Shown: positions 4,263-7,728 of the stretch, piece after piece
How positions within the stretch are numbered: the first letter of the stretch is position 1
Layout: every line of letters starts with the position of its first letter
Assembly (NCBI GenBank): GCA_029933125.1
Contig: JAOZOU010000025.1
Location: 1-10,514 of the forward strand
Direction: 5' to 3'
Length of the DNA stretch: 10,514 bases
From: a bacterium
GTDB lineage: Bacteria; Arandabacterota; Arandabacteria; Arandabacterales; Arandabacteraceae
The notes under the pieces: generated by a model
Database searches by the model: none
The model's input: the letters and a program-made list of their open reading frames with translations, nothing else
Told to the model about the DNA's origin: nothing
Program-made: the position numbers and the translations under genes

Positions 4263-5609
4263 TTAGGGTAAGGGGAGATGCTCAATCCCTCGTGAAGTTA
4301 CCTTTCCAATTACTGTGCGTAAGGTTGAAGGACGCTTGCCGCTAATCATGATGGCTTCCTTCAAGAGATCGGTAAACCTTCTGCCCTCCCTTCGATTGCG
4401 AGCATATATGAGAGCAATTGCTTCGCCCCTACGAACCTTATCCCCTCTCTTCCTAAGAAGCTCAATGCCGACCGAATGATCAACACTATCTTCCTTTCTC
4501 ATCCTACCCGCGCCAAGCATAGTTGCAATCCGTCCAACTTCATAGGCATCAATTTCAGTAATATATCCCGATACAGGTGCGACAAGACGCATCCTGCTGG
4601 GCGAGAGGGGCAAACGTTCAGGTTCATCAACAATTCTTGGATCCCCGCCCTGTGCCCTTACCATCTCCCTAAACTTTGCAAGAGCTCTTCCTGAGAGAAG
4701 CTCCTGACGCAAAAGCTCGTAGGCACGATTGCGTCCTTTGACCTTGCGTGCGAGAAGAAGCATTTCGGCACCGAGCGCCATTGTTACATCAATGAGATCA
4801 GGAACCCACTTACCCTTCAAGACCTCTATTGTCTCTCTTACCTCGATGGCATTTCCAATACAATAACCAAGCGGTTCATCCATCCGGGTAAGAATCGCTG
4901 TTGCCCTCAGGCCAAGCATCCGTCCAACTTTTATTAGAAGCCTCGCAAGGTTGCTCGCATCACGCGCATTCTTGATAAAAGCTCCACTACCAGACTTTAT
5001 GTCAAAGACGACCGCATCTGAACCTGAGGCTATCTTCTTGCTGAGTATGCTACTTGCCATCAATGGAGGGCATGCCACAGTTGACGTTACATCGCGAATT
5101 GCATAGAACTTGCGGTCAGCTGGGGCAATTTCATCAGTCTGCCCAACAATCGCAATTCCAACCTGGCGAACGACGCGCTCGAAAGCTCTTGGTGTGAGGT
5201 TTGTTCTGAAGCCAGGAATGGATTCCAGCTTATCAAGCGTGCCACCTGTATGCCTAAGGGCTCTACCTGAAACCATGGGGACATGCACACCAAGTGAAGC
5301 GACAAGTGGTCCAAGGATGAGTGATATCTTGTCACCAACACCACCGGTTGAGTGCTTATCGACTTTGTAATCCTGAATGCTTCGAAGAGTAAGGCGCTTT
5401 CCCGAGGCTATCATTGAGGCAGTAAGATCGCGTGTCTCACGCAGGCTCATACCGCGGAAATAGACAGCCATGAGCAAAGCGGAGATCTGGTAGTCAGGAA
5501 TCGTGCCAGCTACTGAGCCTTTGACGAACCATGAGATCTCCTCAGAGGTGAGACTCCTACCGGCCTGTTTCCGCGCTATTATGTCAACAGCAGCATAATT
5601 TCCTTGCAT
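4263..5609 (-). CDS. pdp: Pyrimidine-nucleoside (thymidine) phosphorylase
   Basis: It cleaves thymidine, deoxyuridine or uridine with phosphate to the base plus (deoxy)ribose 1-phosphate. The 448-residue protein has the family layout: an N-terminal helical domain, the phosphate-binding KHSTGGVGDK (85-94), the signature SGRALRHTGGTLDKLES (114-130), the DEIAPADRKFYAIRDVTSTV segment, SKKIASGSDAVVFDIKSGSGAF, and a C-terminal alpha/beta domain. Sequence alone does not separate the broad pyrimidine enzyme (pdp) from thymidine-specific deoA; pdp is my preference. The start ATG lies 3 bases after the deoC stop, so the two are surely cotranscribed. It is the last gene of the minus-strand cluster, and its stop faces the PBP stop across 43 bases. 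No hairpin with a T-run is visible there. Confidence 0.93.
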   Translation of the reverse strand: MQGNYAAVDIIARKQAGRSLTSEEISWFVKGSVAGTIPDYQISALLMAVYFRGMSLRETRDLTASMIASGKRLTLRSIQDYKVDKHSTGGVGDKISLILGPLVASLGVHVPMVSGRALRHTGGTLDKLESIPGFRTNLTPRAFERVVRQVGIAIVGQTDEIAPADRKFYAIRDVTSTVACPPLMASSILSKKIASGSDAVVFDIKSGSGAFIKNARDASNLARLLIKVGRMLGLRATAILTRMDEPLGYCIGNAIEVRETIEVLKGKWVPDLIDVTMALGAEMLLLARKVKGRNRAYELLRQELLSGRALAKFREMVRAQGGDPRIVDEPERLPLSPSRMRLVAPVSGYITEIDAYEVGRIATMLGAGRMRKEDSVDHSVGIELLRKRGDKVRRGEAIALIYARNRREGRRFTDLLKEAIMISGKRPSTLRTVIGKVTSRGIEHLPLP

Positions 5610-5612
5610 CTC

Positions 5613-6464
5613 TCATTGACCTGAAACAATCTTTACGCTCGCACTCGCACCTATTCGCGTCGCTCCAGCCTCAACCATTTTGGCAGCTGTCTCCGCATCA
5701 CGGATGCCACCAGAAGCCTTGACCCCGAGCTTTTCTCCGACAACACTCCGCATAAGGCGTACATCCTCAACAGTTGCGCCACCGGGTCCGAAGCCTGTCG
5801 ATGTCTTGACAAAATCCATACCGCTTGCTTTAGCTATCTCACATGCCCTTATCTTCTCCTCATTAGTAAGAAGAGCCGTCTCAAGAATTACCTTGGTTAT
5901 TATGCGCGAGCCGCATGTCTCCTTGACAAGCCGCATATCCTCTTCGACGAGCTTGTAGTCACCCGACTTAAGAGCACCTATGTTCATAACCATATCAATT
6001 TCAGTTGCGCCATCAAGGATTGCCCTTCTTGCCTCATAGGCTTTAACTTCCTTCTTGTTAGCTCCAAGCGGGAAACCAACAACCGAGCAGACCTTTATCG
6101 CAGCTCCTGTAAGAAGCGTTGCCGCAAGTTTTACATTGCATGGATTTACGCAGACACTTGCAAAACCAAATTGTTTTGCCTCAGCACACAGGCGCTCGAT
6201 ATCTGCTCTTGTTGCATCAGGCTTAAGCAGAGTATGATCGATGAGACTGGCGATATCTTTGCCAACCGATTTTATTCCAGGAGCTGAACTGATGCGACTC
6301 GCTCCTGCATCACGTATGTTTGCAACTGCGTTGGGAGCTTTCTCAGCGCACTGGCCACACTGCACGCAAACTGTACACTCCGTAGCTCCGGTGGGTTGAG
6401 TTTCACCAAGCTTGCGGACTACTTCTCTTACCACTTGCTCAACAATTGCCTCAAAGTCCTCCAT
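5613..6464 (-). CDS. deoC: Deoxyribose-phosphate aldolase with an N-terminal targeting-like extension
   Basis: It splits 2-deoxyribose 5-phosphate into acetaldehyde and glyceraldehyde 3-phosphate. The DERA barrel runs from about residue 67 to 283. It has [11 protein letters not shown] (75-85), [11 protein letters not shown] with D157 (E. coli D102), [15 protein letters not shown] with the Schiff-base lysine K220 (E. coli K167), and [12 protein letters not shown] with K249 (E. coli K201). Catalytic residues are intact. The first 65 residues are extra: an amphipathic helix ([20 protein letters not shown], hydrophobic at 4, 7, 8, 11, 12, 15, 16, 19), a linker, and four cysteines at 30, 33, 36 and 39 (C-x2-C-x2-C-x2-C). 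The helix resembles encapsulation peptides of microcompartment enzymes, and the cysteines suggest an Fe-S or zinc site. GGAAGG precedes the ATG by 5 bases. The start overlaps the rpiB end by 14 bases. Confidence 0.95.
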
Positions 6465-7047
6465 CGAGACCTTCCTTCTCTATGCGAGCTATCTTCTCAA
6501 TTCTGCGGGTATGCCTTCCACCCTCAAAGGGCGTCTCAAGCCAAACCTTAACTAGACGTCTTGCAAGTCCGCGATTGACAAAATCAGCACCAAGTGAGAG
6601 TACGTTGGCATCATTATGGAGTCTACTAGACCGTGCTGCATCGACGTCATAGCAGGTTGCTGCTCTAATGCCCTTGACCTTATTTGCGGCTATCGCTGAG
6701 CCAATACCAACGGCATCGATAACGATACCAAAGTCACAGATTTTGCGCGCAACTTTCTCAGCTACGCTCAAGGCGATGTCTGGATAGTCCCCTGTTTCGC
6801 CTTCCTTGATTCCACAGTCAACAACCAGGTGACCGAGCTCGGCAAGGTATTCTCTGAGGCGCTTCTTGAGCACAACTCCACGATGATCCGAACCAATTGC
6901 AACCTTGTATTGCACTTTTGATCTCACTGGCAATTGTTCCTCAGGCATTCGAACCGTCTCAAAACGCACAGTTTCCCCATCACAGGTGAAGGTCCTCTCA
7001 ACTACATTCTGAATGCGCTTTTCAAAATCGTAGGTTCCCTCGTTCAT
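6451..7047 (-). CDS. rpiB: RpiB/LacAB-family sugar-phosphate isomerase homologue, N-terminally extended, catalytic Cys replaced
   Basis: The family interconverts aldose and ketose phosphates, typically ribose 5-phosphate and ribulose 5-phosphate. The fold is clear: VAIGSDHRG (49-57), [10 protein letters not shown] (83-92), [18 protein letters not shown] (113-130), [13 protein letters not shown] (141-153) and [13 protein letters not shown] (174-186). The protein has 198 residues, whereas the family usually has about 145-150. About 47 residues are added at the N-terminus, with an amphipathic stretch (F8, I12, V15, V16, F20). The active-site motif, CGTGIG in E. coli (Cys65), reads DAVGIG here (D111), aligned without gaps up to AANK. 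Isomerase activity on the usual substrate is therefore uncertain. The start codon overlaps the cdd stop (ATGA) and the end overlaps the deoC start by 14 bases, so translation is probably coupled. Confidence 0.9.
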
Positions 7048-7439
7048 TTCAGTCTGAATGGTTTGGGAAGAAGCTCGCCAATGGTGTAAGCATCATAGCC
7101 ATCGGGACGCCCAATGAGGATGCGCTTTATCCCGAACTCACTCATTAGCTGCAGGCAAGCACCACAGGGCAAAGGTTCAGGAATATCTCTTGAGACGATA
7201 GCAATTGTGTCGAGCTTTTTCTCACCATTTGCAACGGCTGAAAGGATCGCGACTCTCTCAGCGCAGACAGTAAGACCATAGGATGCATTTTCGACATTGC
7301 ATCCCATGTAGATCCTGCCTGATTCCGATCTTACTGCTGCTCCAACATGAAGACCTGAGTATGGAGCATAAGCATTGCCAGAGACATCCGAAGCTTTGGA
7401 AATCAAGATCCCATCATCTCTCTTTTGTGGGTCGTTCAT
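7044..7439 (-). CDS. cdd: Cytidine deaminase
   Basis: This homotetramer-type zinc enzyme hydrolyses cytidine and deoxycytidine to (deoxy)uridine and ammonia. It has 131 residues, normal length. Visible motifs are AYAPYSGLHVGAA (24-35), GCNVENASYGLTVCAERVAI (46-65) with zinc ligand C59 and proton-shuttling E61, and PLPCGACLQLMSEF (89-102) with zinc ligands C92 and C95. The usual PCGACRQ is PCGACLQ here; the ligands themselves are intact. The start leaves a normal short N-terminal helix before AYAPYS. The ribosome-binding site is weak (AGG, 8 bases before ATG). A 64-base gap separates it from the Tudor-like gene, the largest gap in the cluster. Its stop overlaps the rpiB start. It would feed uridine or deoxyuridine to the downstream phosphorylase. 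Confidence 0.95.
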   Translation of the reverse strand: MNDPQKRDDGILISKASDVSGNAYAPYSGLHVGAAVRSESGRIYMGCNVENASYGLTVCAERVAILSAVANGEKKLDTIAIVSRDIPEPLPCGACLQLMSEFGIKRILIGRPDGYDAYTIGELLPKPFRLK

Positions 7440-7503: not shown

Positions 7504-7728
7504 CTATGAGTCAGATTCCTCGGGCTCAGGCTCTACAGGCTCTTCCTCCTTCTTCACCAGCTCGAGCTTTCCGTACTTGAGAAGGATCTTCTTCTGCCCG
7601 AGTTTCTCAAATGAAACCACGACAACGGTTTCATCTCGGAATGGGTAGATGTCAATCACATCTCCCTCGCCAAACTTGGGATGTCTTATTCTGTCGCCAA
7701 TACTAAAGTCGTACTTGCCAAGTGCCAT
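7504..7728 (-). CDS. Small stand-alone Tudor-like protein resembling the UvrD/PcrA helicase C-terminal domain
   Basis: The product has 74 residues. Residues 7-57 (DFSIGDRIRHPKFGEGDVIDI...VVVSFEKLGQKKILLKYGKLELV) match the pattern at the C-terminus of UvrD/PcrA helicases: F-x-x-G-[DE]-x-V-x-H-x-x-[FW]-G-x-G-x-V, then a V-x-F strand, then G-x-[KR]-x-[LI]. In those helicases this SH3/Tudor-like module contacts RNA polymerase. Here it stands alone, followed by an acidic, proline-rich tail (KKEEEPVEPEPEESDS, 59-74). There is no helicase part nearby. A role in binding RNA polymerase or another protein is possible but unproven. A relation to the CarD/TRCF RNAP-binding fold is an alternative. The start has GAGGG 7 bases upstream, and only 14 bases separate it from the alr stop, so it is very likely cotranscribed with alr. 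Confidence 0.7.
   Translation of the reverse strand: MALGKYDFSIGDRIRHPKFGEGDVIDIYPFRDETVVVVSFEKLGQKKILLKYGKLELVKKEEEPVEPEPEESDS

Follow-up and report, generated by a model that had tools for sequence, protein, structure and literature searches.

The deoxyribose-5-phosphate aldolase (DeoC) encoded in the window, the whole stretch of 10,514 nucleotides analysed here, is in our assessment luminal cargo of a sugar phosphate utilization (SPU)-type metabolosome (probability roughly 0.87). Its first ~20 residues would act as an encapsulation peptide, placing it with a tagged RpiB-type isomerase in a core with an aldehyde dehydrogenase (AldDH) and PduL. The genes, the tags, their conservation and their association with shell genes are observed. 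SPU compartments have already been described (Axen 2014, PMC4207490; Sutter 2021, PMC8217296), and one with a tagged aldolase is most likely of a kind already known; what may be new is the cysteine/GAxRI module behind the tag. We found no published description of such a module in the open literature, the scope of our search. SPU compartments are among the most widespread bacterial microcompartment (BMC) types, and the literature searched yielded no experiment on any of them. The relevant features of the window are as follows.

4263..5609, minus strand: pyrimidine-nucleoside phosphorylase (Pdp/PynP), predicted cytosolic; TIGR02644, 533 bits
5613..6464, minus strand: DeoC, deoxyribose-5-phosphate aldolase, 283 aa; TIGR00126, 290.6 bits
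6267..6335, minus strand: helix-GAxRI module, DeoC residues 44-66; G54 and R57 invariant, resembles barrel residues 261-280
6339..6380, minus strand: cysteine core, DeoC residues 29-42, with Cys 30, 33, 36 and 39; conserved in family relatives
6405..6464, minus strand: predicted encapsulation peptide of DeoC, residues 1-20; amphipathic helix, seen by AF2, like tags on other cargo
6451..7047, minus strand: RpiB-type isomerase with a 47-residue N-terminal extension resembling an encapsulation peptide; TIGR01120, 152.8 bits from residue 48
7044..7439, minus strand: cytidine deaminase (Cdd), predicted cytosolic; TIGR01354, 121.6 bits

The gene order is Cdd-RpiB-DeoC-Pdp. DeoC (PF01791) and RpiB (PF02502) both score over their cut-offs and are encoded by adjacent genes, and a genome-wide search returned a single DeoC match. 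The DeoC start is credible, because the ATG has the ribosome-binding sequence AAGGAAGG upstream and overlaps the end of rpiB by 14 bases, an overlap of a kind kept in relatives. The curated DeoC model TIGR00126 begins at residue 71, and the barrel is the normal one with intact catalytic residues that an earlier note on this DNA had described: D157, K191 and K220, which correspond by motif to the catalytic residues of the E. coli enzyme, do not vary among 32 aligned sequences, and the AF2 barrel superposes on Bacillus halodurans DERA 6d33 with a target TM of 0.94-0.97. The RpiB extension contains a helix with a moment of 0.62 and is retained in relatives. Cdd has low terminal moments and no tag-like terminus, and Pdp has a low N-terminal moment and no N-terminal tag. 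Positions 7504-7728 of the window encode a stand-alone 74-aa protein with a PcrA/UvrD tudor domain.

The 65-residue DeoC extension with its amphipathic helix, which the earlier note had read from the letters, is exactly placed: positions 6270-6464 are the first 65 codons, upstream of the barrel. The hydrophobic residues (F4, I7, V8, V11, V12, V15, V16 and L19) and the four cysteines also lie where they had been put. The helix spans 19 residues with a moment of 0.61 (shuffle p 0.013), and AF2 places a helix at residues 2-20 with low confidence. DeoC therefore presents what is taken to mark an encapsulation peptide, a terminal amphipathic helix of 15-20 residues followed by a linker. Tags of the same type are carried by three enzymes of the shell locus described below (AldDH, PduL and class II aldolase) and by DeoCs of BMC genomes. 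In the shell locus it takes the form YDIAKLSQEVARRVISRM in PduL, DEKVISAIVEEVLRKLK in AldDH and ERAELIKLIAEEVSKILK at the C-terminus of the class II aldolase; the class II aldolases of relatives in the class terminate in ELVKIIVEEVVKILREG and RLVKMIVEEVVKTLREG. Extended DeoCs come in two forms, one with the tag and a plain linker (Bacillus, Spirochaetota and some Bacteroidota) and the other with the tag and the module. The earlier statement that ordinary DeoC has neither helix nor cysteines is largely right, as seen in the DeoCs of Bacillus, Listeria and Halanaerobium that begin at the barrel, but other DERAs can also be extended at the N-terminus: the alignment to Thermotoga maritima DERA 3r12 starts only at its residue 41.

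The proposal that this DeoC is targeted to a shell gains support from the rest of the genome (3.23 Mb, 97% complete), where the shell genes, PduL and aldehyde dehydrogenase that the earlier note had suggested looking for are all found on contig C172. The order there is PduL, BMC-H, BMC-H, BMC-P, EutE-type AldDH, a PduS/RnfC-like protein, BMC-T, BMC-P, BMC-P and class II aldolase. The shell is represented by four PF00936 domains in three genes (two BMC-H and one BMC-T) and by three PF03319 genes (BMC-P), and the core by AldDH (PRK15398, 679.7 bits) and PduL (PF06130, 248.3 bits). What the earlier note had missed is that these shell genes are not on the contig of the window and are accompanied by a class II aldolase. 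The locus is preceded by genes for a molybdopterin oxidoreductase and a RACo-type corrinoid reductive activase (positions 4311-8234 of L005); the activase is also found beside shell genes in G001, G003, G004, G005 and G006, and no B12 enzyme was seen in the locus.

Among relatives, the Cdd-RpiB-DeoC-Pdp order is kept in six genomes of the class (G000, the genome of the window, and G001, G002, G004, G005 and G006, the contig of the last ending after DeoC), each of which has shell genes elsewhere. Another genome of the class, G007, encodes RpiB and DeoC as one fusion protein, four cysteines lying between the two enzymes, on one contig with BMC-H, BMC-T, BMC-P, AldDH and class II aldolase. In a Gemmatimonadota locus (L010, 5380-9969), three BMC-P genes are interleaved with the same set, in the order Cdd-BMCP-RpiB-BMCP-BMCP-DeoC-Pdp. 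More broadly, PF00936 shell genes are present in 38 of 42 genomes with an extended DeoC versus 9 of 34 with a plain one (Fisher p 1e-8), the genomes having been picked by similarity to the query and not being independent by descent. When the 38-residue module alone was searched against 386 genomes at E <= 1e-5, 13 genomes outside the class matched; the module directly precedes DeoC in all 13, and all 13 have shells, compared with 10 of 52 non-class genomes in a comparison sample. This second test is not fully independent of the first, because some of these 13 genomes seem to be the ones that hold loci already included (G177 with L011 and G201 with L010, for example). In this search and at this threshold the module matched only DeoCs of BMC genomes, which makes it a usable marker. 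The earlier note had held that its proposal would fail if the genome lacked shell genes and the extension were common in organisms without compartments; what we see instead is the C172 locus and an extension tied to shell genes.

It is very improbable that the extension has nothing to do with compartments, being no more than an ordinary N-terminal helix on a product of a housekeeping deo operon. The operon is indeed a normal set for pyrimidine nucleoside salvage, and other DERAs such as 3r12 have N-terminal extensions, but the strong association with shell genes, their interleaving in L010 and their position beside the fusion in G007, and the matching tags on core enzymes all argue otherwise. 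Several observations nevertheless weigh against the cargo reading. G003, of the same family, has the shell locus but yielded no DeoC match, and four extended DeoCs come from genomes without detected PF00936, possibly incomplete MAGs. No DeoB phosphopentomutase scored over its cut-off in G000, where the sole PGM/PMM-family match, on contig C42, is a candidate pentomutase. AF2 models the extension with low confidence. DeoC may also be an additional cargo and not the signature enzyme, since the shell locus is separate from it, on C172, and brings a class II aldolase with it. In the Anaerolineales, DeoCs L065 and L078 carry an extension of 60 residues that looks helical, and no PF00936 shell genes were detected in their genomes.

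Comparison with known systems places the gene set as an SPU-type cargo satellite and not a canonical SPU locus, because DeoC and RpiB are on C174 and the shell genes on C172. The families pfam01791 and pfam02502 are common to SPU loci (PMC8217296), and here, too, a DeoC-type pfam01791 and an RpiB-type pfam02502 enzyme occur in one genome with PduL, AldDH, PduS, BMC shell proteins and tagged cargo. The aldolase/isomerase pair, all three shell types (BMC-H, BMC-T and BMC-P) and AldDH with PduL are thus present, but the signature enzymes lie outside the shell locus (they share one locus with it in G007): DeoC and RpiB are part of a satellite for nucleoside salvage, together with Cdd and Pdp, and the shell locus has a class II aldolase instead. 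The SPU-like locus of Latescibacteria (PMC4207490) likewise has AldDH, PduL, PduS and a class II aldolase among its shell genes; there, however, RpiB is in the locus and the class II aldolase replaces DeoC, whereas here DeoC and RpiB form the satellite. Some HO genomes encode, elsewhere in the genome, a pfam01791 enzyme with an EP-like extension (PMC8217296). They resemble our case in having a DeoC-type enzyme with an EP-like N-terminal extension away from the shell genes, but here the satellite adds RpiB, Cdd and Pdp, and the extension holds the cysteine/GAxRI module.

From these observations we infer encapsulation, the flux through the compartment and the function of the module. The untagged Cdd and Pdp would work in the cytosol, freeing deoxyribose-1-phosphate from pyrimidine deoxynucleosides, while DeoC and RpiB would act inside the shell encoded on C172. 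Acetaldehyde from DeoC would be oxidised to acetyl-CoA by the EutE-type AldDH (PMC8217296, and established knowledge), from which PduL would form acetyl-phosphate. Electrons may exit via PduS, which has a 4Fe-4S dicluster domain, and the PduT-like BMC-T, a route that is possible because the latter carries CPGKY, the motif employed for a [4Fe-4S] cluster in PduT-type proteins (PMC6325248). The cysteine core between tag and barrel may bind metal, and the helix-GAxRI segment may dock onto another core protein or another DeoC subunit. The conserved Cdd-RpiB-DeoC-Pdp order, with shell genes interleaved in one lineage, suggests that the compartment is probably fed with pyrimidine deoxynucleosides.

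The C-x2-C-x2-C-x2-C spacing is expected only ~1e-6 to 1e-4 times by composition. Under a loose pattern, the GAxR segment occurs in 49 of 111 distinct DeoCs, 18 of these 49 having CxxCxxC and 6 having CxxCx5C. The cysteines recur across many lineages and are absent in several relatives, and the earlier suggestion that the core could bind metal, as Fe-S or zinc, is plausible. Searched against the PDB, the extension by itself had no significant match (best E 0.25). In the AF2 models, the mean pLDDT of the extension blocks is 45-73 for the window DeoC (24 sequences) and stays below 77 for this protein and L011 (22 sequences) alike; these values being low, no metal geometry was read from the models. 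The module between tag and barrel is a hint that a plain aldolase may have acquired a metal site inside an organelle.

That the core ligates a [4Fe-4S] cluster, involving DeoC in the redox wiring of the compartment or in O2 or redox control of its assembly or activity, has somewhat less than an even chance, and would add to the encapsulation explanation, not replace it. It is favoured by the combination of CxxCxxC with a fourth cysteine whose place varies by lineage: at +4 in L011, L044 and L141, whose DeoCs have the ferredoxin-like CxxCxxCxxxCP; 6-9 residues upstream in L145, L149-L151, L154, L155 and L025; and at -3 in the window. The dicluster domain of PduS and the CPGKY motif of BMC-T in the host locus, and the ferredoxin-type domains among the non-significant PDB matches, point the same way. 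C33, C36 and C39 of the window DeoC correspond to the first three cysteines of the [4Fe-4S] ferredoxin peptide CxxCxxCxxxCP, which L011 and L044 have in full, but here Ala43 takes the place of the fourth cysteine, and Cys30 is extra. The cysteines have moreover been lost in L026, a close sister of L011 (83% identical), and number only two or three in the core of Planctomycetota DeoCs, with tag and GAxRI kept. Alternatively, and rather tentatively, the cysteines could bind zinc or form disulfides that merely stabilise the linker or an inter-subunit contact. Their differing number and spacing between lineages would suit such a role, as would the short strands that AF2 draws around them at 30-32 and 39-41, small and knuckle-like and of low confidence. 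Cysteine triplets at i, i+3 and i+6, however, are generally found more often in Fe-S sites than in Zn sites.

The earlier note had overlooked helix-GAxRI, a second module that is conserved. G54 and R57 are invariant across 24 aligned sequences, and residues 44-66 resemble the protein's own alpha7-beta8 (261-280; shuffle p 0.003), the same position that gives the extension's best barrel match in most module-bearing DeoCs. A module HMM searched against 9154 ORFs ranked the alpha7-beta8 of DeoCs as the best non-self matches, above all non-DeoC ORFs, in a set that is rich in DeoC. Outside DeoC, the module gave only weak partial matches in the 386 genomes, to the CxxCxxC part, to DeoC C-termini and to other short stretches. 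The two GAxRI segments were also compared directly by profile, a result that is not relied on because the choice of both segments biased it. A barrel tree gave no single origin for either module or tag, and, its deep forks being poorly supported, it is not read as a history of them.

The segment could be a degenerate partial copy of alpha7-beta8 by which DeoC associates with itself or docks and is thereby packed in the core, a reading that is possible but on balance doubtful. The recurrent match, its significance for the window and the HMM ranking speak for it, and there is a precedent in GRM2 glycyl radical enzymes, whose N-terminal extension resembles a portion of the enzyme itself (PMC6325248). 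Against it, AGAxRI is a simple helix-turn-strand pattern that may be convergent, the ORFs searched are rich in DeoC, and AF2 draws a low-confidence helix at 44-52 and no strand for the GAxRI segment. It is unlikely that both elements combine in an undescribed SPU-aldolase module, with an Fe-S cysteine core and a degenerate alpha7-beta8 copy coupling DeoC to the PduS/PduT chain or to redox-dependent assembly, in a compartment with two signature aldolases.

In L118 (G007:C166), the class II aldolase has the C-terminus SLCNLCGTCGKDA, a CxxCxxC tail; at this place the enzymes of G000, G003 and G004 carry an encapsulation peptide. Triplets of cysteines may turn up on two BMC aldolases that are unrelated.
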